Of a stretch of 64,000 bases of DNA, positions 25,325 through 41,787 are shown piece by piece. Origin of the DNA: Candidatus Thiodiazotropha endolucinida (GTDB taxonomy: Bacteria; Pseudomonadota; Gammaproteobacteria; Chromatiales; Chromatiaceae); assembly GCF_001715975.1 (NCBI RefSeq), contig NZ_MARB01000010.1:62001-126000 (forward strand), given 5' to 3'. Below the pieces are notes generated by a model. That model was given only the letters and a program-made list of their open reading frames with translations. It ran no database searches and had not been told where the DNA came from. Numbering within the stretch: the first letter of the stretch is position 1; each line of letters begins with the position of its first letter. The position numbers and the translations under genes were made by a program.

Positions 25325-25344
25325 GAGCCTGTTGACACTAATCC
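25325..25344. repeat. Copy of 20-base gene-end repeat
   Basis: GAGCCTGTTGACACTAATCC differs at two positions from the consensus GGGCCTGTTAACACTAATCC built from the copies at 48111 and 49619. It contains the stop codon of the small Cys-containing ORF, read on the minus strand. Confidence 0.5.
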
Positions 25345-25517
25345 GTGGGAATGGGGAAGCGGCCACAATAGACGCCCTGCTGCGCATGCTCGCATTTACA
25401 GACCTTATAAGGATCTTTCCAGCACATGATCTCCTTTAACTGACCATCGCTCGAGCCCGGTTTGGCTTCAACCTGCTGCTGTTGATCGTTATCATGATCG
25501 GATTGTTTGGTCGTCAT
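25338..25517 (-). CDS. Small Cys-containing protein of unknown function
   Basis: 59-aa frame from the ATG at 25517. The amino half is hydrophilic and Gln-rich. The carboxyl half holds CWKDPYKVCKCEHAQQGVYCG, with four Cys and one His that could bind a metal. A GGAGG lies about 13 bases before the ATG, a little too far. The frame is open upstream to 25607. The stop codon is inside a dispersed repeat. I do not recognise the family, and it may not be a gene. Confidence 0.4.
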   Translation of the reverse strand: MTTKQSDHDNDQQQQVEAKPGSSDGQLKEIMCWKDPYKVCKCEHAQQGVYCGRFPIPTD

Positions 25518-25690
25518 TAATTTCCAATGCCTCCTCACACTGAGCCATACCGGCATCTGACGTCCACTATTGTGTAACTGCTTTTTATACTGTCCCTGAA
25601 TCGGCATGCCGGCCCTACACCACTCATCGAAATGAGATGATGTTTATCTGAAACAATAGTCCATCAACTGCACAATTGTCGGTTTGACCG

Positions 25691-25736
25691 AAAAATGGAG
25701 CGGGATGATTTCTGATCCTTGATGTTAGTCCCGCTC
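25691..25736 (-). terminator. Putative terminator of the kor-rnf operon
   Basis: An 8-base stem (GAGCGGGA at 25729-25736 with its complement at 25698-25705, as read on the minus strand) encloses a 23-base loop and is followed by five T (25691-25695). The stop codon of the last small gene lies at the start of the loop. The loop is long, so efficiency is uncertain. Confidence 0.55.
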
Positions 25737-25901
25737 TTTCTGGCTTGACGTGGAATGAGCGCAGGAACCGCATCCTGCGCAGTTGTCCGAGGACGCTTCT
25801 CTCTCAGGATCCAGCCCGTTCAGCCACAATTGGAATACCACCCAGCCAGCACACAAGGCCACTAATCCCAATATGGCGAACAAATGTATCCATATGGTCA
25901 T
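25725..25901 (-). CDS. Small membrane protein with CxxCxxC motif, coupled to rnfA
   Basis: 58-aa protein whose ATG overlaps the rnfA stop in the tetranucleotide ATGA. Residues 3-30 form one hydrophobic helix (IWIHLFAILGLVALCAGWVV). After a short charged stretch comes C41-A-G-C44-G-S-C47-A-H49 and a polar tail. The layout, one membrane helix and a nearby Cys cluster, resembles NqrM, the iron-delivery factor for the Nqr complex, whose NqrD/NqrE subunits are homologues of RnfE/RnfA. I infer a role in maturing the Rnf membrane iron-sulfur site. Sequence identity to NqrM is not claimed. Confidence 0.75.
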   Translation of the reverse strand: MTIWIHLFAILGLVALCAGWVVFQLWLNGLDPEREASSDNCAGCGSCAHSTSSQKERD

Positions 25902-26476
25902 GCCGCACTGAACAGGCCGGCAAATCCCATGAATGCCATGGAGAGAATTCCGGCAATAATCAGGTTCATGGCTGTCCCTTTAATCAGTCGAGGCACTTCA
26001 GCCAGCTCGGTCTCCTCCCGCAATCCGGCCATCAGCACCAGAGCCAGGGTAAAACCCAATCCTGCTCCCAAAGCATAGGTCATACCCTGTATGAATCCAT
26101 ACCCTTTGTTGGTGGCGAAGATGGCCAGACCGAGAATCGCGCAGTTGGTAGTGATCAAGGGCAGGAATATCCCCAATGCCTTGAATAGACCCGGACTCAG
26201 CTTTTTTATCACCATCTCGATGAATTGAACCGTGCTGGCAATCACCACGATAAAACTGATCAACCTGAGGTAAGGTGCATAAATCAGGATATAGGTATTG
26301 AGCAGCCAGGCGCACAATGCGGTAATCAGCATCACGAATATGGTGGCCAAGCCCAATCGGAAAGCGGTTTCCAATCGCTGCGATACCCCCAAAAAAGGAC
26401 ACAAACCGAGAAAATAGGCCAGTACAAAATTGTTGATTAGCAGGGCGCTGATGAAAATCCACACAAGTTCGTTCAT
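25898..26476 (-). CDS. rnfA: Rnf complex membrane subunit A
   Basis: 192-aa integral membrane subunit (RsxA/RnfA) of the ferredoxin:NAD oxidoreductase, with six hydrophobic helices. The half-helix Cys motifs are FVLAYFLGLCPFLGVS and PLITTNCAILG, the proposed ligands of the cluster shared with RnfE. It begins in the last bases of rnfE (ATGA overlap) and its stop overlaps the small Cys protein. Confidence 0.97.
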   Translation of the reverse strand: MNELVWIFISALLINNFVLAYFLGLCPFLGVSQRLETAFRLGLATIFVMLITALCAWLLNTYILIYAPYLRLISFIVVIASTVQFIEMVIKKLSPGLFKALGIFLPLITTNCAILGLAIFATNKGYGFIQGMTYALGAGLGFTLALVLMAGLREETELAEVPRLIKGTAMNLIIAGILSMAFMGFAGLFSAA

Positions 26477-27123
26477 GGCGCTTCAATCTCCATCTGATCC
26501 AGTTGTTGCGCCAGTCTGTCCTTACGCTCTTTCAGCCAGTTGAAAAAGAGCAATAAAAGGCCCAAGGTGATGAAACCGCCGGGTGGCAGGATCATGATCA
26601 CCCAGGGTTCGAAGTTCTCACTGAAGAGTTTGTATCCGAACAGCGCACCCTCTCCCAGTAGTTCACGAACCGCACCCAGGGAGAACAGGGCAAACAGGAA
26701 ACCACTGGCCATGCCCAGCGCATCCACCACGGCGAAACGCACCGAGTTGCGAGCGGCAAAGGCCTCCTGCCGTCCCAGGATCATGCAGTTGGCCACGATC
26801 AGGGGTATGAAGGCCCCCAACTCTTTGTGAACCTTTGGCATCAGCGCCTCAAGGGTAAAGTCGGTGACGGTGACAAAAGTGGCGATGATAATGATATAGG
26901 TGGAGATACGTACCTGTTTGGGTATCCAGTTTTTCAATGATGAAACGAAAAAACTCGAGGCCACCAGCACAAAAAAAGTCGCCCCTCCCATCACCAGCGC
27001 ATTCATCGCAGAGTTGGTGACTGCAAGCATGGGACACATACCCAGTACTTGAACAAAAACCGGGTTGTCGCGCCAAAGCCCCTTGATGAACTCCTGATAA
27101 GCGTCTTGTTTTTTCTCAGGCAT
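26473..27123 (-). CDS. rnfE: Rnf complex membrane subunit E
   Basis: 216-aa membrane subunit, partner and homologue of RnfA. The paired Cys motifs appear in VQVLGMCPMLAVTNSA and FIPLIVANCMILGR. The ATG at 27123 (MPEKKQDAYQEF) follows AGGG at a workable distance; a GTG three codons upstream is also in frame. It overlaps rnfA by four bases. Confidence 0.96.
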   Translation of the reverse strand: MPEKKQDAYQEFIKGLWRDNPVFVQVLGMCPMLAVTNSAMNALVMGGATFFVLVASSFFVSSLKNWIPKQVRISTYIIIIATFVTVTDFTLEALMPKVHKELGAFIPLIVANCMILGRQEAFAARNSVRFAVVDALGMASGFLFALFSLGAVRELLGEGALFGYKLFSENFEPWVIMILPPGGFITLGLLLLFFNWLKERKDRLAQQLDQMEIEAP

Positions 27124-27150
27124 GCTCTTCACCCTGTTTGAACAATAATC

Positions 27151-27777
27151 CTAGAAACGCTGTAACCACTGTTGGTTCGCCTGGTTGATAATCCGCACCA
27201 CCGCCTTGGAGGAGATAGTCGCCCCGGTGATGGCATCAACCTCGTTCGGTGCTGCTTTAGCGCCTCGCTTTACAGTCACGATTTCCGGTTCGACGGATAA
27301 GGCATCGAAATTCGAAACGAACTCGGCATCCTTGTAGATCTTGTCCCCCAGACCCGGCGTTTCCCGGCTCTCGAGTATCTCCATGCCAACCACCTTGCGC
27401 TGCTTAGGCTGATAGCCATAGAGCAAACGAATGGTGTCCTGGAAACCGGGACCTGATCCGGGAATGGCATACCCCACCAGCACCCCCTGTGCATCTTGGC
27501 CGCCGAAGACGAATTCCTCACCCTTCCCGACTTCTTCCACCGGTGTCAATCGACCATCCCGGTAGACTAATCGCTGCAGTTGCGTGGAGCCGGGTAACAC
27601 CTTGAATACCGCCTCCTGCAAAACCTTCGCCTTATAGGCGGTAATCGTGGGCAGGGTGGCTTCAAATACGGAGACAATGATCAGGCCGGATAGCAGACCT
27701 GCAAGGCCAAGGGTTGCCACCAAACGGCTGGATCCGGGTTCACTGACCTTCATCTGTTGTCGGCTCTGCTGATTCAA
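27151..27777 (-). CDS. rnfG: Rnf complex FMN-carrying subunit G
   Basis: 208-aa protein with one amino-terminal membrane helix (about residues 20-40) and an FMN-binding domain outside. The attachment motif is DAITGATISSKAVV, where the Thr of GAT is the covalent FMN site placed by ApbE in this family. The start codon is a TTG with AAGGAG ten bases before it. An ATG eight codons later lacks a ribosome site. It starts seven bases after rnfD. Confidence 0.95.
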   Translation of the reverse strand: MNQQSRQQMKVSEPGSSRLVATLGLAGLLSGLIIVSVFEATLPTITAYKAKVLQEAVFKVLPGSTQLQRLVYRDGRLTPVEEVGKGEEFVFGGQDAQGVLVGYAIPGSGPGFQDTIRLLYGYQPKQRKVVGMEILESRETPGLGDKIYKDAEFVSNFDALSVEPEIVTVKRGAKAAPNEVDAITGATISSKAVVRIINQANQQWLQRF

Positions 27778-27784
27778 CTGAATG

Positions 27785-28792
27785 TCACTCCTTGCCGAAC
27801 ACGCGAGGCTGAGTGTAGCGGTCGATCAGTGGCGTGGCCGCATTCATCAACAAGATGGCGTACATCACCCCCTCGGGAAAACCGCCGAAAAGCCGGATCA
27901 GTACAACCAGCAACCCGATACCTATGGCGAAGATCCAGGCGCCGCGCGGGGTCAGTGGGGATGTAACCGGATCCGTCGCCATATAGAAAGCCGCCAGCAA
28001 CAATCCCCCGGATAACAGGGTGAATAAAGGATCCGGATACCGAACTGTATCGATGGCGTAAAGCACACCCGAAAAGAGTGCAGCTGAAAGCAGGATACCC
28101 ACAGGGATACGCCAATCGATATCTCGACGCAACAGCAGATAGATCCCTCCCGCCAGCAACAACAACCCACTGGTCTCGCCGATACAGCCCGCACTATTAC
28201 CCAACGCCAAATCGACCAGCGGGGTCGGCTGCTGCTCGAATTTCATCAATCCCAGGGGCGTGGCTGCGGATACCGTATCGTAGTGAGGTTGCATGAATGG
28301 CAGTGCGAAGTTGGAGGGATACCACAACAGAAAGCCTTCTCCACTTGCCTGGACACTCCAGGTCGTCATGGCATTCGGGAAGGTCGCAAGCAGAAAGGCC
28401 CGCCCGACCAGGGCCGGATTGAACAGATTGTGTCCCAGTCCACCCCAGATCACCTTGCCTATACCAATGGAGACTACCCCACCGAGAAAAGCCATCCACA
28501 GCGGTAGCGCGGGGGGCAGGGTCAGACCCAGCAACAGACCCGTCAGCACGCCGCTGCCATCCAGCAGTCGCTGCCATCGCTGGTCTCCCGGGGAGAAGAG
28601 CCATTCTGTAAGCACCGCCCCCAAGACACTCGCCACAATAACCAGAAGTGCTCCCAGACCGAACAGCCAAATTCCAGCCAGGGTGGCGGGCAACAGTGCA
28701 TACAGCAGATCCTTCATGGTCTGAGCCGTTGTCATCTCCTGTTTCAGCAGGGGTGATGGCTGCACCAGTAATCTCGGATCCTTGTCGTTCAT
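27785..28792 (-). CDS. rnfD: Rnf complex membrane flavoprotein subunit D
   Basis: 335-aa integral membrane protein, related to NqrB, with about nine hydrophobic helices. The covalent FMN motif is TVSAATPLG, putting the flavin Thr at residue 178. The conserved GLGHNLFNPALVGRAF follows the first helices. Its ATG overlaps the rnfC stop by one base (TGATG), which suggests re-initiation. Confidence 0.96.
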   Translation of the reverse strand: MNDKDPRLLVQPSPLLKQEMTTAQTMKDLLYALLPATLAGIWLFGLGALLVIVASVLGAVLTEWLFSPGDQRWQRLLDGSGVLTGLLLGLTLPPALPLWMAFLGGVVSIGIGKVIWGGLGHNLFNPALVGRAFLLATFPNAMTTWSVQASGEGFLLWYPSNFALPFMQPHYDTVSAATPLGLMKFEQQPTPLVDLALGNSAGCIGETSGLLLLAGGIYLLLRRDIDWRIPVGILLSAALFSGVLYAIDTVRYPDPLFTLLSGGLLLAAFYMATDPVTSPLTPRGAWIFAIGIGLLVVLIRLFGGFPEGVMYAILLMNAATPLIDRYTQPRVFGKE

Positions 28793-30132
28793 CAGTGCCT
28801 GCCCCGCTTTCCGCGCAACTCGCTTTTAGCGCTGCGTATCAGTTGCACGATGGGAATACCCGAGGGACAGGAGTAGGTACAGGAGCCACACTCCACACAC
28901 TCCGTGACATTGGCCTGTTTGATCTGATCGAACTGACGCGCTCTGGCCAGACGGGCCAGTTTGGACGGATTGAGAAAATAGGGGCATGCCTCGACACACC
29001 GACCACAGCGTATGCAGGGGTACTCCTTCGGACGAGCTGTCTGTTCCGCGGTAAAGGCCAGTATTCCGGAGCTGGACTTGATGATCGGCGCATCCAGACT
29101 GGCAATGGGAGTACCCATCATGGGACCCCCCATGAGTACCTCTTTGGTATCCTCCTTGAGCCCGCCGCAGAATCGAAGCACCTCCCGGACGGGGGTACCC
29201 AGTGGGACGATCAGGTTGGCGGGATATTCAATACCGGGCCCTGATACCGTCACCATACGGTCGATATAGGGCATGCCGGACTCGAAATAGTCGGCGAGAG
29301 CGACAAGGGTGCTGACATTGTTCATGATGATACCCATGTCCGCCGCATGCAGTCCCTTGGGTATCTCTACATTCAGCAGGGATTTGATCATCATTTTGGA
29401 ATCCCCCTGTGGGTATTTGACCCTCAGGGGAGCTACACGGAACGGCTTGTCGGAGGGGATACGCCTATCCAGGGCCTCGATGGCGTCCGGCTTGTTGAGT
29501 TCGATACCGAGAATGGACTCCTCGGCCCCCAACAGGGTGTGCAGAATCTCAACGCCCCGCAGTAGTGCCTCAGGACGCTCCACCATGATTCGATGGTCGT
29601 TAGTCAGATAAGGTTCGCACTCAGCGCCGTTGGCAATCAGGTGTTTGATCTTCACACCTTCACGCAGAGAGTATTTGACATGCGCGGGAAGCGAAGCCCC
29701 TCCCAACCCCACGATGCCCGTCTGTTGAATAACGGAAACCAAATCCTCCAGCGACAGTCCCCGCCAGTCGGGCGGCTGCTCAACATCGAGACGCTGGGTG
29801 GCATACAGATCAGCTTCGATCTCGATGGCCTGCTCATATCGTCCGCCGGGAAAACGCCGTCTACCTATGGCCTTGACCCAGCCGGTGACCGGACTATGCA
29901 GACTGGCGGATACGAATGCCCCGGGCTCGGCAATCAGCTGACCTCGCCCTACCTGTTGCCCTGCCTCCACCACCGCCTTCGCGGGTGCCCCCAAGTGCTG
30001 GTGCAACGGCAGTATGTAGCGCTCTACAAAGGGCATTCTCTGGGTATGCAGGGAGGCGGTCCGGTGCTTGTATTCCTGTGGGTGAATACCGTGTGAGAAG
30101 CTGCGTTTGAACAGTGTGGAGAGCGTTGGCAT
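28792..30132 (-). CDS. rnfC: Rnf complex iron-sulfur/flavin subunit C
   Basis: 446-aa peripheral subunit that binds NADH and FMN and carries two [4Fe-4S] clusters. The NuoF-like glycine-rich region reads GIVGLGGASLPAHVKYSL. The cluster motifs near the carboxyl end are CIRCGRCVEACPYFLNP and CVECGSCTYSCPSGIP. It is the short form, without the long repetitive tail of E. coli RsxC. The start (MPTLSTLFKRSFSHG) falls eight bases after the upstream PFOR-like gene. Twelve more upstream codons are open but overlap that gene. Confidence 0.96.
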   Translation of the reverse strand: MPTLSTLFKRSFSHGIHPQEYKHRTASLHTQRMPFVERYILPLHQHLGAPAKAVVEAGQQVGRGQLIAEPGAFVSASLHSPVTGWVKAIGRRRFPGGRYEQAIEIEADLYATQRLDVEQPPDWRGLSLEDLVSVIQQTGIVGLGGASLPAHVKYSLREGVKIKHLIANGAECEPYLTNDHRIMVERPEALLRGVEILHTLLGAEESILGIELNKPDAIEALDRRIPSDKPFRVAPLRVKYPQGDSKMMIKSLLNVEIPKGLHAADMGIIMNNVSTLVALADYFESGMPYIDRMVTVSGPGIEYPANLIVPLGTPVREVLRFCGGLKEDTKEVLMGGPMMGTPIASLDAPIIKSSSGILAFTAEQTARPKEYPCIRCGRCVEACPYFLNPSKLARLARARQFDQIKQANVTECVECGSCTYSCPSGIPIVQLIRSAKSELRGKRGRH

Positions 30133-30139
30133 ATCGTGT

Positions 30140-33100
30140 TTACTGTGCCGATTCCCTATACCCGGCAAGCCTCATCAGACGCTCATGCATCGCTTTGCGG
30201 GTCTCCTGTTGGAGTTGATTGGTCAGATCGCTGATGCGTTGTTCATACTTATCCGCCTGCATCTGCAACGCCTCTTCATGGTCTTCAGCCACGGCTGCTT
30301 CCGCCTCCTCGCGCACCCGTGCGGTAAATGGCGTCACCAATCCCGCCAGCTCCTGCAGCATGCGCCATGTCCGTTGCCGCTTCTCGGCGATCTCCAGCAT
30401 ATGCCTGTCTATACTGAAACGCTGGACCTCATCCCCCTGCCGGTTCAGTTCAACGTAAACCGACTTCTTTTCTCTCTCCCCGATTGACAGATCGAGATAC
30501 TCTGCAAGCCTGACAGCTTCCTCGTCAGGATTGAGCAGTGAAAAATAGCCACTGAAGCGTGTCTCACCGAGTGCCCAATCGACAGGTGTATACACCCCCA
30601 TCCCGGCATCTTTTTCCCACGGCTCCGTAAGCGCCGGATTACCATCCAGGCTGATCCGGGAACCGAATACACCTTCCGCTTGCGGATCGTATCGGAACAG
30701 GGGAAAGAGTCGGCTCATCACTGCCGTCCGGGCGCGATACAGTGTCTGATCGGGCGCAAAACCGTGTCGCGAGGGGCTCGGGGCATGCAAGTGCACCAGC
30801 GCCGGACCCCTGTGGGCCAGGGCAGACTGGATGCATTCTGCGAAATGACCCCGATCACTGATTGAGGTCTGGGCAATAAATGACTCCCGCTGAACAAGCG
30901 ACAGCAGCGCCAAATCGATAGCCACGTCATCCACCGAGGTCAGCGGCGACTCCAGGCCCGTCCGTTCTGCAAGCCCCAGATCCAGGTCGGCGAACAATAC
31001 TGTTTTTATCGGCAGCTCATTACCCAAAACCCGGACCAGCTGGCCTAAGCCGTGACCTGCCAGCTGACCGCTGTCGCCCACCAGTAGCAGGATTGGACAC
31101 AACGCTCTCTCTTCATCATCGAGATCGCGCCAGGTCATTGTCTCGAGATCGGACCAGAGGCGCGCCGCATCCGCGGACTGCTCCAATTCCGCACGCGCCT
31201 TGCGCATCAGCACGAAACCTTCCGTCGCCTGCCGCAGTTGGCCCTCCAGCAGACCGGCGGCCAACTGTGCGCCGTCACCTGTGGCATCGAGTGTGACGGG
31301 TGTCGAGAAGGGGTTGTGAGGAAAACTACCGGCCCAGCCAACCACTGCACCTGGAGAAAGCACAAGGCTTACCCTGGAGCGCCCCATATCCTGACGTCCA
31401 CTGCTGAGTCGCCAGGCGAGATCAATCAGGTCACGCGCCAGATCCACCAGGCGGCATAATCGGGCTGCATCCACCTGATTGCTGATGGCATCCTCCGCTT
31501 CACCGATCAGGCTGGTCATGTCAGCCTGCCTCGCGTCGCTCTTTTCCAGGCCACGTGAGAGTGCATCCAGGTCATCGGCAGGAAGGGCGTCCGCCAATAG
31601 ACTGCGGATCGATCCGGTGATCTTTTCCCGGGTTGTCTCGACCTGTTGCAGAAACGATTCAAACCGCGGTGTCTGCTGAGCCTCGACAATGGCAAGGGCC
31701 AGGCGCAGCGCCAATTTCGCCCCGCTTCCAGGTTCGACACCATCGCCACCGGCCATCGCCAACCCTGCGCTGTGCGCCAGATGGGCGGCGGCCACCACAC
31801 CGACTTGCGGATCCTCTGCCAGCCTGCGAATTGTATTCAGCTCACTGTCGGGCAACCCATGCCACGCCTTCTGAATCCGGCGCGCTCGGGATAGAGATTG
31901 CGAACTTTGCGGTATAGGCTGCAACGCTTGCTCTCCACAGGCTTGAATACAGATTCCGCAACCCTTGCAACCATCCGGCTCCACGGCAAGCGCCAATAAT
32001 TCACCACTTCCCCTGTTATCTGTTTCAGGTTCATTGAACATGGGATTGGTGACAGCAACCTGCAGACTGCCCATGTCACTTCGCAATTGCTCAATACCCT
32101 GCGCAATCGCTTGTTTGCGGTCTTGAGGAAAGGGCAGTTTCTCTTTGATCCCGTCATAGCTGATGTCAAGCATCTCTTCCAGTGTGGAATAGCGTGTCTC
32201 CTGCTGTCGACAGAGTGAAGTTATAGCGGCAGCGAGTTTCGAGGCCACCGGTCTGAGCGCCTCGGCGCCACTGTACCGGATTGCGGCATCCATCAGGCGC
32301 ACGGGAGAAATCGAGACGGCCTTGATGACAGAATCGGGACAGGCGCACCAGCAGTCGCCGCATCCAGTGCATAACAGCGGATTGAATTGCGGCAGTTGCT
32401 TGCGAAACCTGCTCAGATCACGAAAACCCGCTGACAAGGGAGGCACAGCCGCCACCGCCAGATAGGGATCAGGCGCCAGCTCACCGCTCTTGCCCTGTTT
32501 ATACAATACCCCGACCTGATCCCAGAACCGGGGCAGGCTGTCATAGGCATCATCCAGGCTTCCCAATCGGCGAACCAGGGCCGGGACTTCATCGTCGACG
32601 TCAGAAATCGAGCGCGCCGGAATCAGAGGAAGACGTTTCAGGCTGATCTCCCTGACCTGATTCATGCCCCCTTCGAAAAGCTGCAAACAGGCATCGACAT
32701 CGGCCACTGACTCTCCCAACAGCTCTTCACGCAGACTCAGCAACCGACGTGGTGTCATCGTCAACCGCTCAGTCGTGATCAATACGGCGGAAACAGCGCC
32801 TAAAAGATATTCATTCGGCAGGGAGTCGGATTCCTCTGTCGGGGCCACTCTAAACAGGCGTATCCCGTTTTCCCTGATGTGGGAACGTACCGCCCTGGGC
32901 AGCTGCGTCCAAACCGATTCATCGGGAAGCGTGCTCTGCACAAGCAGGGTTCCTCCCTTCACGAGGCCATGGTGCGGCATCAACCGCTGCATGCCGGTAG
33001 TTGTCACCAGTATCGATAGATCCACGGGGGTGTCGTCTCCGGGATCTCGAAGTTCATCGCTGCAGAAGCTGATCCGATCACTACAGACACCGCTCCAGGA

Positions 33101-34720
33101 TTTGCTGAACAACGCCGGTCGGCTACGCACACCACCACCGAAGATTCGATGCAGGAAGGCTGCCGTTTCCACCATCAACCCCTCTCCGGCGGCTCCCGAC
33201 AACCGGTGTAGAGCCAGCGTCAGTGCGCCTTCCGGTCGCAGGTCGGGTGAGACGGTTTCATCGTAGAGCCCCATCGACTCGAGCCCCGGATAGCTGCGGC
33301 GTAAACGGTCCAACAAGACCTGTCGTTTCGGATAGTCGCTGGATGTTTGGGAAAAGTTGATGCCCAGATAGACCTGCTGCTGTTTGATCCCATCCAGGTT
33401 TCTGCACAGTGAAGCCAGATCCGAACCACGCAGGGGAAGCCCACCCAACCCATATATGGCTGAGAGAAACCTGGGGCGCTGTTTATCGCTTATCGATGGA
33501 TAGCCCGGATGCGTTTCGAGCCCGAATCGATGGTTTTCCGCGGCATGGTCAAACGCACCACGCACCTCCCTCATCAACGGCGGGTCTGTCGCCAGCGGGA
33601 CATCCATGCGCTCCAGTACGCAAACATTGGCGCCGCCTGCGAGACAGCGTGCTATCTCTTTTGCGGGGAAGGGACGCAGACAGCGTACACCCAACACACC
33701 AACCTTTAAACGGTCGCTGGTACGCAGGTAGTCTGCCAGTGCCTCGAGGACCTCAATAGCCCCACCCTGCGCAACCAGAATCAGTTTGGCGTCATCAACC
33801 CGGTAAGCTGAAAGTGATCGATGTCGCCGGCCCGTCTGTTCGGAAAAAACATCAAAGGCGTCATCAAGGCAATCCGATAGCGCATCGTCAAAGAAGACAC
33901 GCCCCGACGCTTTGGCCTGCCCCCACACCTCCGGGGCCTGAAGTCCACCCAGCATGACAGGTCGGTCAGGGTTATGCCAACGGGTTACCCGTCGGCGCGA
34001 CTCACCCAGCAACAACTGCTGTGCCGCAGTCGGGGATGCAATCAGATCTTCCGGCCGTCCCAGGTAGCGCTCCACCAAGCTCGGAGGCGGCAGGCTGACC
34101 TCCTGCAGTGCCAGCGCTGTCTGTTCACCATCCATACCAACCAGGCCAGGTACCAGTGACTGCTCGGCTGCGCGTCGCACGATCAGGGAGAAATCCACAG
34201 CCTCCTGGACATTCGCTGCAATCAACTGGAAACAGCCGGAATCAGCCGCCAGATGAAAGGCTTCATGACCACTGCCCAGCGCCGGTGCGTGACCGGCAAG
34301 ACTGCGTGCAGTGAGGTGTATGACTAACGGCAGCCTGCGACCGGCGGCGATGGTCAACAGGTCACTGCTGCATGCCAGATCGGGCCCGGATAAAAAGCCG
34401 GTTGCCCGTACGCCGCTCATTGACATACCGATGCTCGCAGCCAGCACACCACGTGCCCCTTCTGTTGACTGCATGCTGACAGGTGAACCCAGGAAATTCA
34501 GCCGTTGCTGCTTCAGTTCACTGCGCCAGGCCAGGTCAGCTGTCAGTGCCGGATAGGACGCTCCCAGCCCGGCCCCTTCACTGATTCCCGCTTCCAATAC
34601 AGACACGGCCGTATTACCGTCCAACAGTGTGCTGTTGCCCGCATAAGGGCCCTGCGTGCGCGAGGGCGTCCCAAGCAGGCGTTTCAATAACCGTAAAGCC
34701 GAATTAACCAGGTCGGGCAT
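30140..34720 (-). CDS. Giant PFOR (NifJ)-like protein with eroded catalytic site
   Basis: 1526 aa, between rnfB (17-base overlap) and rnfC. By eye it follows the pyruvate:ferredoxin oxidoreductase plan: a domain I-like region (about 50-230; LTARSLAGHAPALGSGHEAF resembles the NifJ AARALATHALSIFGDHQD region), domain II (about 250-450; KVGVLGVRCLRPFPAKEI), a gamma-like domain (about 450-650), and a two-cluster ferredoxin domain (C784, C787, C790, C794; C918, C921, C924, C928). The last third resembles the TPP domain, but the Cys that bind the proximal cluster are missing and the GDG...N thiamine motif reads GDSGQLAGHG with no matching Asn. It ends in a coiled coil. I infer an electron-transfer or scaffold role, not catalysis. 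Confidence 0.8.
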   Translation of the reverse strand: MPDLVNSALRLLKRLLGTPSRTQGPYAGNSTLLDGNTAVSVLEAGISEGAGLGASYPALTADLAWRSELKQQRLNFLGSPVSMQSTEGARGVLAASIGMSMSGVRATGFLSGPDLACSSDLLTIAAGRRLPLVIHLTARSLAGHAPALGSGHEAFHLAADSGCFQLIAANVQEAVDFSLIVRRAAEQSLVPGLVGMDGEQTALALQEVSLPPPSLVERYLGRPEDLIASPTAAQQLLLGESRRRVTRWHNPDRPVMLGGLQAPEVWGQAKASGRVFFDDALSDCLDDAFDVFSEQTGRRHRSLSAYRVDDAKLILVAQGGAIEVLEALADYLRTSDRLKVGVLGVRCLRPFPAKEIARCLAGGANVCVLERMDVPLATDPPLMREVRGAFDHAAENHRFGLETHPGYPSISDKQRPRFLSAIYGLGGLPLRGSDLASLCRNLDGIKQQQVYLGINFSQTSSDYPKRQVLLDRLRRSYPGLESMGLYDETVSPDLRPEGALTLALHRLSGAAGEGLMVETAAFLHRIFGGGVRSRPALFSKSWSGVCSDRISFCSDELRDPGDDTPVDLSILVTTTGMQRLMPHHGLVKGGTLLVQSTLPDESVWTQLPRAVRSHIRENGIRLFRVAPTEESDSLPNEYLLGAVSAVLITTERLTMTPRRLLSLREELLGESVADVDACLQLFEGGMNQVREISLKRLPLIPARSISDVDDEVPALVRRLGSLDDAYDSLPRFWDQVGVLYKQGKSGELAPDPYLAVAAVPPLSAGFRDLSRFRKQLPQFNPLLCTGCGDCWCACPDSVIKAVSISPVRLMDAAIRYSGAEALRPVASKLAAAITSLCRQQETRYSTLEEMLDISYDGIKEKLPFPQDRKQAIAQGIEQLRSDMGSLQVAVTNPMFNEPETDNRGSGELLALAVEPDGCKGCGICIQACGEQALQPIPQSSQSLSRARRIQKAWHGLPDSELNTIRRLAEDPQVGVVAAAHLAHSAGLAMAGGDGVEPGSGAKLALRLALAIVEAQQTPRFESFLQQVETTREKITGSIRSLLADALPADDLDALSRGLEKSDARQADMTSLIGEAEDAISNQVDAARLCRLVDLARDLIDLAWRLSSGRQDMGRSRVSLVLSPGAVVGWAGSFPHNPFSTPVTLDATGDGAQLAAGLLEGQLRQATEGFVLMRKARAELEQSADAARLWSDLETMTWRDLDDEERALCPILLLVGDSGQLAGHGLGQLVRVLGNELPIKTVLFADLDLGLAERTGLESPLTSVDDVAIDLALLSLVQRESFIAQTSISDRGHFAECIQSALAHRGPALVHLHAPSPSRHGFAPDQTLYRARTAVMSRLFPLFRYDPQAEGVFGSRISLDGNPALTEPWEKDAGMGVYTPVDWALGETRFSGYFSLLNPDEEAVRLAEYLDLSIGEREKKSVYVELNRQGDEVQRFSIDRHMLEIAEKRQRTWRMLQELAGLVTPFTARVREEAEAAVAEDHEEALQMQADKYEQRISDLTNQLQQETRKAMHERLMRLAGYRESAQ

Positions 34721-35567
34721 AACGGTTCTCTCTCTGAATCCGTGAAGGGGTCTGGTTTGCAAACTGGCCCCCTTCCAACCATTGAATGGCACCGGTAGGA
34801 CAGCGGTAGGTCGCCGCAGGATGGGCCGGTCCACCCCCTGAGTAGTCGACGACCGGCAGGTTATCCTTCATGTGGATCAGACCGGGCGCCGCATCCGCCA
34901 CACAGCGCTCACAGGCATCGCACGCCGTGGTGCAGAGCGCCACTGCCATATCACCGGCAAGGGGCGCCATGCATTGTACGAAGAGATGCTGGCTCAACGG
35001 CACCAGTTCGAACAGATCCCTTGGACAGACACCCACACAATCACCACAGGCGGTACAGTGCTCGATATCGACCACAGGCAGCCCGTTTGAATTGGTAGTG
35101 ATCGCATTGAAGCTACAGGCTCGCTGGCAGTCACCGAGGCCGAAACACCCCCAGGAACAGCCTTTGCCGCCACCGGAAACCACGGATGCCGCAAGACAGC
35201 TTTCGAATCCCCTGTATTCGGCGATCTGGTATGCCTGGCCTTTTCCCCCGGCACAATGCAGTCGCGCCACCCGCTTCTCTTGCTGCCCCGGATCCACATC
35301 CAGCAGTTCAGCAACGGCGTCGATCGTCTCCTGGCTTGCTACAGTGCACTTGCTGGGTGAAGTCGTCAGTTGCACCAGCTGCTCGGCAAATGCATGGCAC
35401 CCCGGTTGCCCACAGGCACCGCAATTTGAACCGGGCAGCAGATCTTCGGTCTCTTCGATCCGGGGATCCTCCTGCACTTTCAGAAATCTGTAAGCCACCG
35501 CCAGGATACTCGCAAAAACCAGACCGATGCCGGTCATGATGGCGGGTGCGATAACAAAGCTGTTCAT
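34704..35567 (-). CDS. rnfB: Rnf complex ferredoxin-type subunit B, long form
   Basis: 287-aa electron-input subunit. A single membrane anchor (about residues 5-28) is followed by the [4Fe-4S] motif of the family (C49, C52, C57, C74 in LPGSNCGACGQPGCHAF and beyond). Then come ferredoxin-like motifs GCSWGCFGLGDCQRAC, CTACGDCVGVCP and CTTACDACERC. The additional Cys-rich middle recalls the Bacteroidetes/clostridial type more than the shorter E. coli RsxB. It overlaps the upstream 840-aa gene by four bases (ATGA). Confidence 0.95.
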   Translation of the reverse strand: MNSFVIAPAIMTGIGLVFASILAVAYRFLKVQEDPRIEETEDLLPGSNCGACGQPGCHAFAEQLVQLTTSPSKCTVASQETIDAVAELLDVDPGQQEKRVARLHCAGGKGQAYQIAEYRGFESCLAASVVSGGGKGCSWGCFGLGDCQRACSFNAITTNSNGLPVVDIEHCTACGDCVGVCPRDLFELVPLSQHLFVQCMAPLAGDMAVALCTTACDACERCVADAAPGLIHMKDNLPVVDYSGGGPAHPAATYRCPTGAIQWLEGGQFANQTPSRIQRENRYARPG

Positions 35568-38086
35568 TGGTTGAACGGCGCCGCCCGTTCAATCAATGAG
35601 TCCAGATCGGGCTCATCTTGATTGAGGGGCTTCCCAGGATGAATGCATTTCGCCGGACAGAGTTCAGCCGCCTGCACCAGCTGAGCATAAGTGGCATTAC
35701 CGAGATCCCCGAGCATGGCCTGCTTCTCGTCGTTATAGATGAAGAGATGCGGGTTGATCGGCAGGCAGTCATTGCAACTGGTGCAAAGGGGGGTATCGAT
35801 CCAGGGATCGTCAAAGCTTAGGCTCTCTTGTTCTTCTTCATCAGGCGGCTCGCTCTCCTCAGCTTCATCGCGCTGTTGTTCCGGCATCACTTCATCACTG
35901 CCCATGGCGACAGGCCCGGAGGGTATGTCGCCGGGACGCAGCCCCCCCTCGACATCCAGGCCAAGCAACACATCCGTGAGTCGCTGCATGGCCTCGCCGG
36001 CGGCTTCGTTTCTCACCCGCTCCACCTCTTCGGCATGTGCAGCCTGTACGCGAACCAGCTCATTGCTGGCTAGCTCACGCTCCTCCGCCCGGGTTTTTTC
36101 CACCGCCATATCGACATAACGGTTGCGCACGCCCGCCATCTCCTGCAGGGTGTGCCAATAGTTGAGGCGGTCACGGCAAGCCAGCGCGAGCTCTCTTGAG
36201 ATCACCACACGGTGCAGCATGGCGTTGCCGTCAATGGCCCATACAAACGGCACACGTCTATAGGCTTCCTCCGGGCTCATGGCCAGATAGTCCTGTATCG
36301 ATAACAGCCCGTCTGAATCGCAGCCGGCCGGGATCAGTCGGAAATGGTCTCGTAGACGCTCGATCAGCAGGGCATGATCGGCAAAGGTGAATGCCAGTTC
36401 TGTGGTGACACTATTGCCGTTGTCATCCAGGTACTGAAACGGATGCAAAGGCCAGTCCCGATCAGCCTGGGGATTACCGCTGAAATCCATCCGCACCGCT
36501 GCCGAATCGCCTGCTTCCGGGTTGATGCGGAAAAAGGGGTGGGCTCGGCTTTCGATGGCAGCGCCAGCCACCAACCAGGCATTCAGCGGAAGCAATCTGC
36601 CGGGTGGACGCATGCCTGTATTGATGACATGCAGACTGGTGCGGGTGGCATCCAAAGCCATCAGGTAACACTTCAACAGGTGCTGATGTCGGGCAGCGGA
36701 AGACTGGTCGACAACGGCTTGACGATGACTGATGCCCAGATAACTCAATTCGGTCCGGTAGCTCTTGAGTGGATCGCCTTCGAGACCGGCACCGGGATCG
36801 GCATGCGCCAACACCCGGATCAGAATCTGTACAGGCCGCCCCGAGCTGAGCAGCCGGGAAAAGGTACGCAATCCCTCGCCGGCCACCTGATCGGCCGATC
36901 CCAACGCGATCACCGAGGGCACCATTCGCAACTCTTCTTGTGAAAAGGCCTCCCAGCTGAAATTGGCGAACCAGGGGTCGTGAATTTCCGGGTTGTAGAT
37001 AGCGTCGATCTCCAACTGTGCGATACGCACCGCACTGTAGATCGAGGTCAGCTTCTCAGCCTCACGATCGAATATCTCCATCGCTTTGGCGCAGGGGTCA
37101 TGATCGGTGATCTCCTGGCAGAAATCGACCTCCTGAAGCCAGGGATCGGTCAGCGTGCCAATGTGCAGGAAACGGACCAGCACCGGGTCGGGATGCCAAC
37201 CTTGCATGATCTCCAGCGCATGTTCGATACGCTCACGCCGCTCCTCTGAAATAGACCGGGTGCCCCGGGAATGATCCATCACCGCGGAGAGTATCACGGG
37301 GTCGAAGCGTTCACCGCCCAGGCCGACGCTGTCTCGGGCCATCTTGGGTTCGATCGACTCATCGGATTTGATCCATTCGACTTCGAGGAGCTCCTTCAGG
37401 CCGCGTATGGAGGCATCGATCCGCTCCTGAAAACGTCGTTGCATGTGGAGAAACTGACTGCGTACCGCATGAATCAGAAGATGGAGCGAGGGATAGCGGC
37501 CATAACCCAACAGCTGGGCACCCTCCGGCACAGACTGCAGCAACAGGTTCAGGTCATCTTCCAGTCTCTTTCTTTCCTGTTCATCGAGACCTAGATGTGT
37601 CTGTAGCGCGATGCAGGACTCCGCCAGTGTCGCTCCGGCATCCACCGGACCTTCGCGTTGCTGCAACAGCTTGCGAATATGGTGTTCCAGCCAGGGCAGA
37701 TGGTGTTTCAGAATCCGTGCCTTCCCCTCCTCCGGTGCATTGGATGCCACTGCCTCCTGAAGCCATTGCACAAGGGGACAGGCAAGTTCTTCGGCTGTCT
37801 GATAGGTCTCTTCGGTATTGGGAGGAAAAAGGAACAGCGGGTAGTCATAGCGTAGCCTGGACGTATCGCGATAGGGATCGAGCAAGGCCGGGAGATAGTC
37901 GTCGCCAATCGATTCCAACTGTGCCTTGGCCGCAGGGTCACCCAGGTGGAAATGGCGCAGAAGAAACATCAATTCACGCGTCGCCCGGGCATCCTTGACT
38001 GCCGTCGGCAGGGATGGCACACGCCCCGATTCATTGCTGGGCAACTGGGTCGATTGCTCCTCTGCGGCCTTTTGTATCGTTGTCAT
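35564..38086 (-). CDS. 840-aa protein with PFOR-TPP-like region and terminal ferredoxin motif
   Basis: I do not recognise a named family. Residues 1-340 are helical and acidic. Residues about 390-640 resemble, by eye, the end of the neighbouring 1526-aa protein (SADQVAGEGLRTFSRLLSSG against DSGQLAGHGLGQLVRVLGNE; HPFFRINPEAGDSA against FPLFRYDPQAEGVF). Both then have W-x2-LQE-x-AG and a coiled coil. The end carries CTSCNDCLPINPHLF and, about 30 residues on, AELCPAKCIHPG, fitting one [4Fe-4S] cluster. It lies between korB and rnfB, overlapping rnfB by four bases. Proposed ferredoxin-like link between the two enzymes; inference only. Confidence 0.75.
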   Translation of the reverse strand: MTTIQKAAEEQSTQLPSNESGRVPSLPTAVKDARATRELMFLLRHFHLGDPAAKAQLESIGDDYLPALLDPYRDTSRLRYDYPLFLFPPNTEETYQTAEELACPLVQWLQEAVASNAPEEGKARILKHHLPWLEHHIRKLLQQREGPVDAGATLAESCIALQTHLGLDEQERKRLEDDLNLLLQSVPEGAQLLGYGRYPSLHLLIHAVRSQFLHMQRRFQERIDASIRGLKELLEVEWIKSDESIEPKMARDSVGLGGERFDPVILSAVMDHSRGTRSISEERRERIEHALEIMQGWHPDPVLVRFLHIGTLTDPWLQEVDFCQEITDHDPCAKAMEIFDREAEKLTSIYSAVRIAQLEIDAIYNPEIHDPWFANFSWEAFSQEELRMVPSVIALGSADQVAGEGLRTFSRLLSSGRPVQILIRVLAHADPGAGLEGDPLKSYRTELSYLGISHRQAVVDQSSAARHQHLLKCYLMALDATRTSLHVINTGMRPPGRLLPLNAWLVAGAAIESRAHPFFRINPEAGDSAAVRMDFSGNPQADRDWPLHPFQYLDDNGNSVTTELAFTFADHALLIERLRDHFRLIPAGCDSDGLLSIQDYLAMSPEEAYRRVPFVWAIDGNAMLHRVVISRELALACRDRLNYWHTLQEMAGVRNRYVDMAVEKTRAEERELASNELVRVQAAHAEEVERVRNEAAGEAMQRLTDVLLGLDVEGGLRPGDIPSGPVAMGSDEVMPEQQRDEAEESEPPDEEEQESLSFDDPWIDTPLCTSCNDCLPINPHLFIYNDEKQAMLGDLGNATYAQLVQAAELCPAKCIHPGKPLNQDEPDLDSLIERAAPFNQ

Positions 38087-38141
38087 TTCAGAAAAACTCT
38101 CGTTGCGATCAGGAGTTCGTCAAGCTTTCCCGATTTCGTGA

Positions 38142-39095
38142 TCAGATAGTGATTCGGTCCAACACTGCGTTGAAGCCCTCCAGCCTTTTCTCAGGCGTCA
38201 TCTCCACACCCTGACTCGACAGATCCTCGTAACACTGGGCATCCGGGTTATGGTAAAGCAGTCCCAACGGCAGTCTCGCGCTGTCTGCTGCGAGCTGGAA
38301 GGCCCGGGCCAGATCCGAGGGATCGTGTTCCGTCCGATTGGGGAATTGACGGCTGACACTTTTGTCCACTGGAATTCCCCGCTGATGCTGCAACAGCAGG
38401 AAGCGGTCCGGGTTCTGCTGCAGCTCCTTTGAAAAACTGTCTGCATAGACCGGGCAACGCTGAATAATGCGAACAAACCCAGTCCCTTTGTGTTGGTATG
38501 CGGCTTTTAGTGTTTCGTAGAGTAAAGGGGGATTCCAGTCAGCCACCTGGGCCACGAAAGATACGTTGGTGACACCCAGCGTTACCGTTAACGGATTATG
38601 CGGCTCGAGTATGGCACCGAAAGGATGGGTGTTGGTCTTGAAGCCATGGGGGCTGGTGGGGGATGTCTGGGCCTTGGTCAAGCCGTAGATGGCATTGTCA
38701 AACACCATCAGAGTCATATCCATGTTGTAGCGCAGAGCATGGATCCAATGAGCGGTGCCAATGGAAAAACAATCGCCGTCGCCCGTCGCCACCCACACAT
38801 CCAATTCAGGCCGTCTGGCCTTGATGCCGCAGGCAACGGGCAGTGCACGCCCATGCAGACCATGAAAACCGAATGTGCCGAGATAATGGGGCATACGGCT
38901 GGAGCAGCCGATACCGGAAACACATACAGACATCTCCGGCCGCTGCTGTTCGTCGCGCAAGACCTTTTGTGCGGCTGTCAGCACCGCATGATCACCACAG
39001 CCGGGACACCATCGGGCCTCGCCTCCCGCATAGTCGCCCATGGTGAAATAGCGCTCAAAGACTTCGAGTGACCAGTCAGCTTTCAATCCGAACAT
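38142..39095 (-). CDS. korB: 2-oxoacid:ferredoxin oxidoreductase beta subunit
   Basis: 317-aa TPP- and [4Fe-4S]-binding subunit, most like 2-oxoglutarate:ferredoxin oxidoreductase (KorB). The cluster ligands are C30 and C33 (RWCPGCGDHAVL), C64 (GIGCSSRMPHY) and a later Cys (IIQRCPVYAD). The TPP motif is ATGDGDCFSIG with NAIYGLTKAQTSPTS. Unlike its large neighbours it keeps all catalytic signatures. It overlaps korA by one base (TGATG). Substrate assignment to 2-oxoglutarate rests on family resemblance. Confidence 0.93.
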   Translation of the reverse strand: MFGLKADWSLEVFERYFTMGDYAGGEARWCPGCGDHAVLTAAQKVLRDEQQRPEMSVCVSGIGCSSRMPHYLGTFGFHGLHGRALPVACGIKARRPELDVWVATGDGDCFSIGTAHWIHALRYNMDMTLMVFDNAIYGLTKAQTSPTSPHGFKTNTHPFGAILEPHNPLTVTLGVTNVSFVAQVADWNPPLLYETLKAAYQHKGTGFVRIIQRCPVYADSFSKELQQNPDRFLLLQHQRGIPVDKSVSRQFPNRTEHDPSDLARAFQLAADSARLPLGLLYHNPDAQCYEDLSSQGVEMTPEKRLEGFNAVLDRITI

Positions 39096-40996
39096 CAGCC
39101 CTCTCCTTGCATTGCTTCGAGTCTTTTTACGAGTTCATGCTTGATCATTCCCGGCTGCAGCGGGTGTCCATATACCACCGACCAGCAATCGATATCCATC
39201 AGGGTATGGGCGCGTAACAGCAGGGCAAGCTGGGCGTAACGGCGCGTCTCGCCGGTAATCAGCGGCGAATCGGGATCATCGCTGTAGTTGATCTCCACCG
39301 TCATCACTTTGCGAAAGCCTTTGAAGATCTCTTTCAGCCCGGGTTCCATGGGTAAAATAAAGCGAAGATGCAGGGAAGAGACTTGATGGCCGTCAGCACG
39401 CGCACGATCCACCGCCTCTTCAATGGCGCCAAGGGTTGATCCCCACCCAACCACCAGCAGATCGCCTGAATCATCGCCGTGCACGACGGGTGGCTTCAGG
39501 GTACTGGCCAGGGCGGCAAATTTCCGGCTGCGCATATTTGCGCCGTGCTGATTTGAATCGGAATCGTAGGCCACCTTGCTATGGTTGGTGTGGGCTAGGC
39601 CGGTGAGGATGTATTGGCCACCTAGCATTCCCGGCACGGGTCGAGGGGAAAGCCCACTCTCCGAATCCCAATTGTAGGGAGGAATATGCTCATCCCAGTC
39701 CGATTGGTCGATCGGCGGCGCCATCCAGTCCAGGCTAGGCTCCGGTCTCTGGTAGGGCTGAACCCCGGTTGCCAGATTCGCGTCTGTCAGCAGTATCACC
39801 GGGGTTCGGAACGCCTCGGCAAGCCGTCGCGACATCACCACGAAATGCAGGCACTCCTCAATCGTGGCCGCGGCGATCACGACCTTGGGTGCATCGCCAG
39901 GTTCCCCGAAAAGCGCAGCCAGCAAGTCACCCTGCTCTACCTTGGTGGGCAGGCCGGTGGATGGACCGCCCCGCTGCACGACACACACCACCAGGGGGAG
40001 TTCCGCCATCACCGCCAATGCCAGCATCTCTGTCTTAAGGGCCAATCCCGGTCCCGAGGTAATGGTACAGGCGGTCTTTCCGGCAAACGAGGATCCAATG
40101 GCGAAACCGGCGGCGGCTATCTCATCCTCGGCCTGATGCACAAAGCCCCCAACTTCATGGTAGACATCCGCCAGATAGTGGGATGCCGAGGTCGCCGGCG
40201 TAATCGGGTACATGGAAACCAACTCCATACCGGATGCCATCACCCCGAGTCCCAACGCTGTATTCCCATTGGTGACGATATACCGCTTCCCCTCCATGTC
40301 CTCTGCCGGCTGCGCTGGAACCTGGTAACTCAGGCCCAGTTTCTCTTCGGCAAACCGGTAACCGGCGTCGAACAAGCGGTGATTCATATCGATCACCTTG
40401 TCGCCCTTGCGCTTGAAGGTGGTGGCGATCTCGCCCTTGGCAAGTTCCACATCCCGCGAATAGATATGGCACAACATCCCCAGCACGAACATATTCTTAC
40501 CACGCCTGGGATTCGGCGTAATCTCCAGACAGGCCGTTTCTATCGGTAATTCGTGAACGATCAGGCCGTTTCTACGAAACTCGGCAACCGCCTTCGCATA
40601 CTGCTCACGGATTTCAGGCACGCTGTCGTCGCGCCATTTATCCTCCAACAGCACTTGGGTACCCTCCTTGTATGCGCCGTTGACGATGCGTGAATAGAGA
40701 ACCTGTTCGTTGAAGGCGACCACAATATCGGCTTCATCACCCATATTGGTAACCGCATGGGACGCCAGACGAATCCGGATACCGCTGGCGCCAGCCGGTG
40801 AGCGTGCGGGGGGTTGGATCTCGGCGGGAATGATCTCCACCGTCCAGACACCATTGCCCATTCGGGCGGATACCGTGCCAAAGGTCTGGCCGGCTTTCTG
40901 TGCGCCTTCACCGGAGTCGCTGACGATCTCCACGATGTGCTCACGGGTTAGCGTCAACCTCGGAGCAAGCTCCTCGGCAGTTGTTGCATCCACCAC
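39095..40996 (-). CDS. korA: 2-oxoacid:ferredoxin oxidoreductase alpha subunit (gamma-alpha fusion)
   Basis: 633-aa fused subunit. The gamma domain is amino-terminal (about 28-200: GAQKAGQTFGTVSARMGNG) and the alpha domain follows (about 225-620: MYPITPATSASHYLADVY, with HQAEDEIAAAGFAIG and SGPGLALKTEM). With KorB it interconverts 2-oxoglutarate and succinyl-CoA plus CO2 using ferredoxin, either oxidatively or, with strong reductant, as a carbon-fixing step of the reductive TCA cycle. The start is a GTG with GAGG nine bases before it. It opens the long kor-rnf operon. Confidence 0.94.
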   Translation of the reverse strand: MVDATTAEELAPRLTLTREHIVEIVSDSGEGAQKAGQTFGTVSARMGNGVWTVEIIPAEIQPPARSPAGASGIRIRLASHAVTNMGDEADIVVAFNEQVLYSRIVNGAYKEGTQVLLEDKWRDDSVPEIREQYAKAVAEFRRNGLIVHELPIETACLEITPNPRRGKNMFVLGMLCHIYSRDVELAKGEIATTFKRKGDKVIDMNHRLFDAGYRFAEEKLGLSYQVPAQPAEDMEGKRYIVTNGNTALGLGVMASGMELVSMYPITPATSASHYLADVYHEVGGFVHQAEDEIAAAGFAIGSSFAGKTACTITSGPGLALKTEMLALAVMAELPLVVCVVQRGGPSTGLPTKVEQGDLLAALFGEPGDAPKVVIAAATIEECLHFVVMSRRLAEAFRTPVILLTDANLATGVQPYQRPEPSLDWMAPPIDQSDWDEHIPPYNWDSESGLSPRPVPGMLGGQYILTGLAHTNHSKVAYDSDSNQHGANMRSRKFAALASTLKPPVVHGDDSGDLLVVGWGSTLGAIEEAVDRARADGHQVSSLHLRFILPMEPGLKEIFKGFRKVMTVEINYSDDPDSPLITGETRRYAQLALLLRAHTLMDIDCWSVVYGHPLQPGMIKHELVKRLEAMQGEG

Positions 40997-41111
40997 ATCA
41001 TTGGCCCTCGTTACAAAGAAGTGAAACGATTTCCTGCGCCCTGTTAATTCTGTTTCTATCAGGGCTTCGTCATGAAAAAAGCCTGGTATCTTCCCTGTTG
41101 TTTAAGTCCAC

Positions 41112-41139
41112 ATTAAACGCAGTGGTATTAAGAAGTCAA
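41112..41139 (-). promoter_or_regulatory. Candidate promoter of the kor-rnf operon
   Basis: On the minus strand TTGACT (41134-41139) and TTTAAT (41112-41117) are separated by 16 bases, five of six matches to each box. The predicted leader to the korA GTG is about 110 bases and contains a short imperfect hairpin around 41050-41080. Confidence 0.55.
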
Positions 41140-41168
41140 TTTTTGGAACCTACAATCGACTATCGAAT

Positions 41169-41203
41169 CGGGCAGGACCATGGCAGGAAGTGCCCGTTTT
41201 TTT
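41169..41203 (+). terminator. Terminator-like hairpin with no known upstream gene
   Basis: Stem CGGGCA/TGCCCG (41169-41174, 41191-41196), a 16-base loop and seven T make a good plus-strand terminator. No plus-strand gene precedes it: korA and the DUF2058 gene are both on the minus strand. The stem-loop contains two AGGA motifs. It may end a small RNA that starts in the korA promoter region. Confidence 0.55.
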
Positions 41204-41247
41204 AAAAGCTACAACTTCAACTTACCGGCAAACCTCAGCATTGGACC

Positions 41248-41787
41248 TCACCACATCAGATCGTCGGGTACGATATAATCAGCGTAGGGATCGTCGCTAT
41301 CATCCTGCTGTTCACGATCATTGCGTACAACGATACAATCACGCTTTCTCATGCTGATTTTGTCCGCCACTGCGGTAGGGATGACGTCATATCGATCATC
41401 TATTTTGACAATCACCAGCCGCCCGCCGATCAGTTGGCCATGAATCTCGTCTGTGATAAAAATCCGCCGCACCTTGTTTTCGTCATTGAAATGGTAAACG
41501 ACCTCGCCCTCATCCAACGGAAGACGATTCATCTCAATCAACTGCCTGATCTGAGCGGCGATCGCTTTTTGCTTCGCCTGCTCATTCTTTTTCTGATTCA
41601 GCGCACGATCCCGTTCGACATCCTTGGCTTTCGCCTGTTTTGCCCAACGCACGGCTTCGTCTTCCGCTTTCTGCTTGCGGTGTCGCTGCTCTTTCTCCTT
41701 GCGTTGTTTTGCCTTTTTCGCCTTGTTAACTTTGTTCTTGTCAGTTAAGCCGGCCTTGAGCAGCTGATCTTGTAGTGAGTTAGCCAA
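41248..41787 (-). CDS. DUF2058 protein (YaiL-like)
   Basis: 179 aa. The first 85 residues are a highly charged Lys/Glu/Gln-rich coiled coil (KVNKAKKAKQRKEKEQRHRK). The globular part has the family pattern YHFNDENKVRRIFIT and a conserved MRKRDCIVV near the end. YaiL of E. coli belongs to this family and is described as nucleoprotein- or polysome-associated, but the function is not settled. Monocistronic as far as can be seen. Confidence 0.88.
   Translation of the reverse strand: MANSLQDQLLKAGLTDKNKVNKAKKAKQRKEKEQRHRKQKAEDEAVRWAKQAKAKDVERDRALNQKKNEQAKQKAIAAQIRQLIEMNRLPLDEGEVVYHFNDENKVRRIFITDEIHGQLIGGRLVIVKIDDRYDVIPTAVADKISMRKRDCIVVRNDREQQDDSDDPYADYIVPDDLMW

Follow-up and report, generated by a model that had tools for sequence, protein, structure and literature searches.

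The stretch of DNA analyzed here (the window) is 64,000 nucleotides long and comprises positions 62001 to 126000 of contig C10 in the 4.49-Mb genome (G000) of Candidatus Thiodiazotropha endolucinida. Its minus strand carries a run of 11 genes for the two subunits of a 2-oxoacid:ferredoxin oxidoreductase (KOR), the Rnf complex, and two large proteins related to pyruvate:ferredoxin oxidoreductase (PFOR), an arrangement tentatively read as a dedicated electron circuit for 2-oxoglutarate synthesis. The genes and their window coordinates are as follows.

39095..40996, minus strand: korA, 633 aa, alpha subunit of 2-oxoacid:ferredoxin oxidoreductase with a fused gamma domain
38142..39095, minus strand: korB, beta (thiamine pyrophosphate, TPP) subunit
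35564..38086, minus strand: B840, 840-aa pseudoenzyme resembling PFOR domain VI, carrying a ferredoxin domain for a single 4Fe-4S cluster at its C terminus
34704..35567, minus strand: rnfB, TIGR01944 above the cut-off
30140..34720, minus strand: P1526, 1526-aa PFOR-like protein
28792..30132, minus strand: rnfC, NADH/FMN-binding subunit, TIGR01945 with 496 bits, ATG at 30132
27785..28792, minus strand: rnfD, TIGR01946
27151..27753, minus strand: rnfG, TIGR01947 with 91 bits, below the cut-off of 102, FMN_bind
26473..27132, minus strand: rnfE, TIGR01948
25898..26476, minus strand: rnfA, TIGR01943
25725..25901, minus strand: 58-aa Cys protein with one hydrophobic stretch and CxxCxxC

Read from 40996 to 25725, the order is korA, korB, B840, rnfB, P1526, rnfC, rnfD, rnfG, rnfE, rnfA, and the gene for the 58-aa protein. 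The start-to-stop junctions are -1 (korA/korB), +55 (korB/B840), -4 (B840/rnfB), -17 (rnfB/P1526), +7 (P1526/rnfC), -1 (rnfC/rnfD), +31 (rnfD/rnfG), +18 (rnfG/rnfE), -4 (rnfE/rnfA), and -4 bases (rnfA/58-aa gene), with the starts of P1526, rnfC, and rnfG placed at an ATG picked within the longest frame. The preliminary description of this DNA, made from its letters, had reported eleven genes on one strand with overlaps or short gaps, and this was borne out by the junctions of -17 to +55 bases. The promoter and terminator that it placed at the cluster ends were not recovered in a scan of 25000-41800, in which the minus strand showed no sigma-70-like site (other promoter types lay beyond the scan's reach) and no terminator-like site was seen 3' of the 58-aa gene; the promoter-like and terminator-like totals were both under the shuffled means. 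A frame resembling the 58-aa protein followed rnfA in L056, L058, and L065, which makes 3 of the 16 loci where 300 bases or more were available.

KorA scored 489 bits against TIGR03710, above the cut-off of 483, and contained the POR and POR_N domains; YPITP was kept in 56/56 korA sequences examined. KorB scored 230 bits against TIGR02177, below the cut-off of 262, and no better family was found; it matched structures 5b46 and 6n2n and kept the motifs WCPGCG, GIGCS, and GDGD. GDGD and GIGCS were present in all 63 KorB sequences, WCPGCG was variable elsewhere, and a CxxC near the N terminus occurred in 57 of the 63. An alpha subunit with a fused gamma domain and a beta subunit with a TPP motif and FeS cysteines correspond to a two-subunit KOR; no separate korC or korD lies beside korAB at this locus, so the four-subunit KorABCD type does not apply. 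The korB gene of genome G047 (contig C99) is split across two frames by assembly error or decay.

The two large proteins had initially been called novel, which is wrong at the fold level; a novel fold is ruled out by the relationship of both to PFOR in sequence and fold. P1526 retains much of the PFOR domain set, with a dicluster ferredoxin domain and the PFOR fold, and B840 shares domains and fold with PFOR according to domain models and a fold search in which residues beyond about 95-652 were barely tested. The combination of TPP motifs and proximal 4Fe-4S cysteines that marks PFOR was found in neither. Among 43 P1526 sequences, YPITP, GDG, the YSN Asn, the proximal CxxC, and the fourth Cys were each complete in none, and eight Cys were invariant; P1526 keeps the cysteines for two predicted 4Fe-4S clusters. 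GDG, the proximal CxxC, and the fourth Cys were absent from 76/76 B840 sequences, all of which had the ferredoxin motif. Without GDG and the proximal-cluster motifs, both proteins are best read as degenerate PFOR paralogues. Among named relatives of B840, the closest (97%) comes from a symbiont of Ctena orbiculata, a clam, and the next are those of Ca. Thiodiazotropha genomes (79-81%).

In-frame stops, due to assembly error or decay, were reported in the P1526 copies of L146, L156, and L160. A further PFOR-like family of about 1690-1720 aa, with 26-27% identity to P1526, was present in G016, G049, G021, G192, and G142.

All six Rnf subunits were recognized with NCBIfam models, five above the cut-off and RnfG below it, though no other family fitted RnfG better. 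Four clusters of rnf genes are present in the genome: the plain one on C6, a nif-adjoining one on C10, one of PFOR type on C9, and the KOR type described here. In the C9 cluster (L036, 150001-170000), an intact 1650-aa PFOR, P1650, lies between rnfB and rnfC and is followed by phosphoenolpyruvate (PEP) synthase and then by a gene that is presumably PpsR-like; the PFOR-PEP synthase linkage suggests pyruvate synthesis from acetyl-CoA. P1650 is also flanked by rnf genes in L041, L165, L169, and L170. Just outside the window, at C10:44001-62000 (L038), a complete rnfABCDGE set stands beside nifL, nifA, and nifB. In an unrooted tree of 19 of 20 clusters (L107, without rnfE and rnfA, was left out), a branch with 100/100 support parted the KOR-type rnf genes from those of the PFOR, plain, and nif types. 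A fifth RnfC_N match in the genome (C11) was rejected as Rnf, the frame being carboxylase-like as judged by sequence only. P1650-like proteins with 33-34% identity occurred in another class (L171 and L172), where the next gene differs and the available stretch lacks an rnf match.

Conservation of the gene order was followed at the named B840 loci, which are the best 80 of 171 relatives, with denominators giving the loci with enough flank. korB lay upstream of B840 in 63/72 loci, and rnfB (50/64) and P1526 (47/58) lay downstream, as did rnfC in 34 of the 47 relatives with at least 9.5 kb there, which is more than chance. The KOR-Rnf unit postulated at the outset was thus upheld by the comparison of gene order, kor and rnf being co-located in many genomes. 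Record titles of the loci name symbionts of lucinids, nematodes, and tubeworms, purple sulfur bacteria, Beggiatoa/Thiomargarita relatives, Woeseiaceae, and one Methylophaga metagenome-assembled genome. Records of Thiorhodococcus and Thiocystis carry B840. Among 195 genomes of the order, KorB (E up to 1e-80, identity at least 62%) and strong B840 matches (E below 1e-200) were each found in 40, with 39 genomes common to both and 41 having either; the exceptions were G174, where korB stands at the end of a contig and a strong B840 match is lacking, and G178, with B840 and no korB. Of 397 genomes drawn from across the phylum, each at least 90% complete, only the own one gave a whole-length B840 match.

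P1526 was searched for in 30 genomes; it follows B840 in 8, and in 19 of the other 22 an orthologue with identity of at least 41% is encoded elsewhere, so a genome with the KOR module tends to keep P1526 as well, even at a separate chromosomal site. No clear P1526 was found elsewhere in G239 (33%), in G227, which has P1650 only, or in G226 (1.7 Mb), which gave no match. The unlinked P1526 had rnfB or another rnf gene nearby in 11 of the 16 genomes with enough flank, that of G199, G208, and G209 being too short to judge; in G016, rnfB lies about 2 kb from P1526 with two inserted genes between. The tie between P1526 and Rnf is thus strong but not universal. At this Thiosymbion-type locus (L177, G016:C1:1042000-1061000), the two genes between rnfB and P1526 are related and encode about 200 aa each, and a 286-aa gene separates P1526 from rnfC; the insertions are perhaps mobile elements. 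B840 was present in 6/22 genomes of the own genus, so the operon was gained or lost. At L176 (G069, same genus), the operon is missing and the NUDIX-like and DUF2058 genes that flank it stand about 780 bases from each other, an empty site that was not seen at the other three same-genus loci fetched.

The KOR clusters of relatives contain additional genes, namely, sucC or sucD (12/48 loci; 2-oxoglutarate is a putative substrate of KorAB), a NuoF-like gene (20/55), a TfrA/SdhA-like flavoprotein (12 loci, one of them SdhA on the opposite strand), mdh (3 loci), and, in 9 loci, a gene for a 2Fe-2S/4Fe-4S protein. By predicted function, these genes belong to the reductive arm that leads from oxaloacetate to 2-oxoglutarate. 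A match to ATP citrate lyase was found in 22 of 37 B840-positive genomes of the order (one of the 22, G149, weak) versus none of 23 B840-negative ones. This comparison, also used for NifH, covered 37 of the 40 B840-positive genomes (G171, G185, and G189 omitted) and 23 hand-chosen from 155 B840-negative genomes. The lyase lay about 8-22 kb from the operon in G137, G155, G132, and G121, and on a different contig or far away in the others.

The reading favored here, with a probability close to but short of an even chance, is a dedicated KOR-Rnf electron circuit serving mainly NADH- and ion-gradient-driven synthesis of 2-oxoglutarate. NADH would be oxidized at RnfC, and the ion gradient, through ion inflow, would push electrons through the membrane Rnf to the potential of ferredoxin. 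P1526, as a shell of PFOR whose active site is gone and which retains the cysteines of two 4Fe-4S clusters, would stand on the Rnf side with RnfB, and B840, as a PFOR remnant with its own ferredoxin domain, would hand the electrons to KorAB for carboxylation of succinyl-CoA to 2-oxoglutarate. It is plausible that both proteins are electron carriers, B840 being the probable partner of KorAB. The system probably originated from a PFOR-Rnf unit like that on C9, which would have been duplicated, lost the PFOR active site, and taken on KorAB as the new catalyst. Gene content, homology, loss and retention of motifs, conserved order, and co-occurrence are direct observations; inferred from them are a putative complex in which the parts touch, the route of the electrons, the origin by duplication, and the net direction of the circuit. 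A stricter version, in which KorAB, B840, P1526, and Rnf are united in a single membrane-bound machine and the ion gradient directly powers CO2 fixation, appears rather unlikely; the dead PFOR would then be a fixed wire on the Rnf side, and the second remnant would tether ferredoxin to the carboxylase.

Several observations weigh against the reductive circuit. rnfC was not downstream of B840 in 13/47 loci, and no rnf gene was found in the available flank of P1526 in G202, G203, G204, G213, and G232; these genomes were reached through mostly Beggiatoa-like records, titled Thiotrichaceae (L082), Thiomargarita (L084), Gammaproteobacteria (L086), Thioploca (L099), and Halobeggiatoa (L119). The comparison of ATP citrate lyase is phylogenetically non-independent, 15 of the 23 B840-negative genomes being from one genus. 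In a second set, which comprised 50 loci after L075, L079, L122, and L126 had been dropped from an initial list of 54, the lyase was found in 11, three of which (L105, L106, and L108), recognized by the same match coordinates, repeat the first set, and further repeats are possible. ATP citrate lyase (PF16114) had no match in the own genome and none in the 20 others of its genus searched, six of these 21 having the operon, and the own genome has the E1 component of 2-oxoglutarate dehydrogenase. At one place of the TPP motif, Asn stands in 70/76 B840 sequences (Asp in the own B840), so the TPP site is not wholly erased. Finally, according to the available text of PMC6315080, where the direction is left open, gltA lies near dimeric korAB in a tubeworm symbiont, which fits oxidative use.

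The idea of reductive carboxylation through a reversed Rnf held in part: a KOR-Rnf unit is present in many genomes, and relatives with ATP citrate lyase, sucCD, fumarate-reductase-like genes, and mdh favor it, whereas the reductive tricarboxylic acid (rTCA) setting applies to only part of the relatives and, for the own genome, the reductive direction and direct physical channeling are tentative. The comparison with autotrophy gene content suggested at the outset found ATP citrate lyase in part of the B840-positive and none of the B840-negative genomes covered, and not in the own genome. The operon was rejected as a simple stand-in for a missing 2-oxoglutarate dehydrogenase, since E1 is present in the own genome and matched in 186/195 genomes of the order; of the nine without it, three carry B840 (G076, G102, and G106). 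Thiotrophs with Kor and Frd and without ATP citrate lyase are described in the accessible part of PMC6593406, with PFOR proposed as a heterotrophic CO2-fixing step, and partial use of this kind could fit Ca. Thiodiazotropha endolucinida. The net direction may be reversible and may vary between species.

Of the alternatives, an arrangement without direct wiring, with B840 as a ferredoxin-bearing KOR subunit, P1526 as an extra Rnf subunit or separate carrier, and free ferredoxin linking the two, is possible though doubtful. It would account for the separation of korAB-B840 from P1526 in Beggiatoaceae, Thiosymbion, and Thiorhodococcus records, for B840 without upstream korB in 9/72 loci, and for the five rnf-less P1526 copies, but not readily for the co-occurrence of the KOR and P1526 modules in 19/22 unlinked genomes or for the relationship of P1526 and B840 to one parent protein.

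The same circuit could also run forward, KorAB oxidizing 2-oxoglutarate and passing electrons via B840 and P1526 to Rnf, which would make NADH and pump ions; this, as an energy-saving bypass of 2-oxoglutarate dehydrogenase at low oxygen or in nitrate respiration, is considered unlikely. The missing match to ATP citrate lyase in the own genome and the gltA neighborhood would fit it, and dimeric korAB is thought to work both ways in the part of PMC9796809 available. However, the genome already encodes 2-oxoglutarate dehydrogenase E1, the operon of relatives comes with fumarate-reductase-like genes and, in some, with ATP citrate lyase, and the PFOR-Rnf unit adjoins PEP synthase, which fits synthesis.

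That P1526 and B840 are enzymes of a new chemistry and not electron carriers is very improbable: P1526 keeps much of the PFOR domain set, and B840 has many invariant residues outside the ferredoxin domain besides the Asn mentioned above, but GDG and all tested proximal-cluster cysteines are missing from both families. Supply of ferredoxin electrons to nitrogenase, raised by nifH on the same contig, is hardly credible and was rejected, since NifH does not track B840 (above the cut-off in 10/37 B840-positive versus 15/23 B840-negative genomes) and the rnf cluster beside nifL, nifA, and nifB fits better.

The circuit favored here bears on the question of how sulfur oxidizers obtain ferredoxin electrons low enough in potential for reductive carboxylation, to which named genes, two recognizable pseudoenzymes, and a conserved operon offer a handle. 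The operon occurs in purple and giant sulfur bacteria, in Woeseiaceae, and in symbionts of clams and tubeworms, and, if the wiring is true, it would illustrate the conversion of enzymes into electron carriers. Parts of the picture are already in print: dimeric korAB is known from these bacteria, a "PFOR-like" gene has been described, and PMC6315080, the Fig. S4 and Note 2 of which may hold part of the KOR neighborhood, has Rnf close to genes of the rTCA cycle. In the portion of PMC11636981 available, expression of a "PFOR-like" gene falls together with that of korAB(3) in Endoriftia, a gene that may or may not correspond to P1526 or B840, and RNF and OGOR/PFOR isoforms (OGOR, 2-oxoglutarate:ferredoxin oxidoreductase) are among the complexes whose in vivo function or direction is given as unknown. 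No published account of the KOR-B840-rnfB-P1526-rnf unit or its PFOR remnants was found in full-text searches of the literature, supplements not covered.

Compared with known systems, KorAB has the alpha and beta subunits and catalytic motifs of the two-subunit enzymes of Magnetococcus marinus (OGOR, 6n2n) and Sulfolobus (5b46), but is tied here by gene order and co-occurrence to B840 and often to Rnf. The Rnf complex has all six subunits of RnfABCDGE and differs in the P1526 gene between rnfB and rnfC. P1526 and B840 have domains and fold in common with the PFOR of Desulfovibrio africanus and Moorella, whose GDG and proximal-cluster motifs they lack. In the rTCA cluster of tubeworm symbionts, korABCD stands with Flx-Hdr, pntAB, and rnf, and dedicated electron delivery to OGOR in sulfur-oxidizing Gammaproteobacteria is likewise proposed, as far as the available text of PMC6315080 and PMC11636981 goes; there, however, a four-subunit OGOR is paired with Hdr-Flx, and dimeric KorAB is encoded elsewhere in the genome (PMC6315080). 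Ferredoxin also belongs to the enzyme in the five-subunit OGOR/PFOR of Aquifex, where, in the accessible part of PMC10052474, it is the small epsilon subunit, whereas here it forms one domain of B840, a PFOR remnant of 840 aa that is encoded together with rnf genes.

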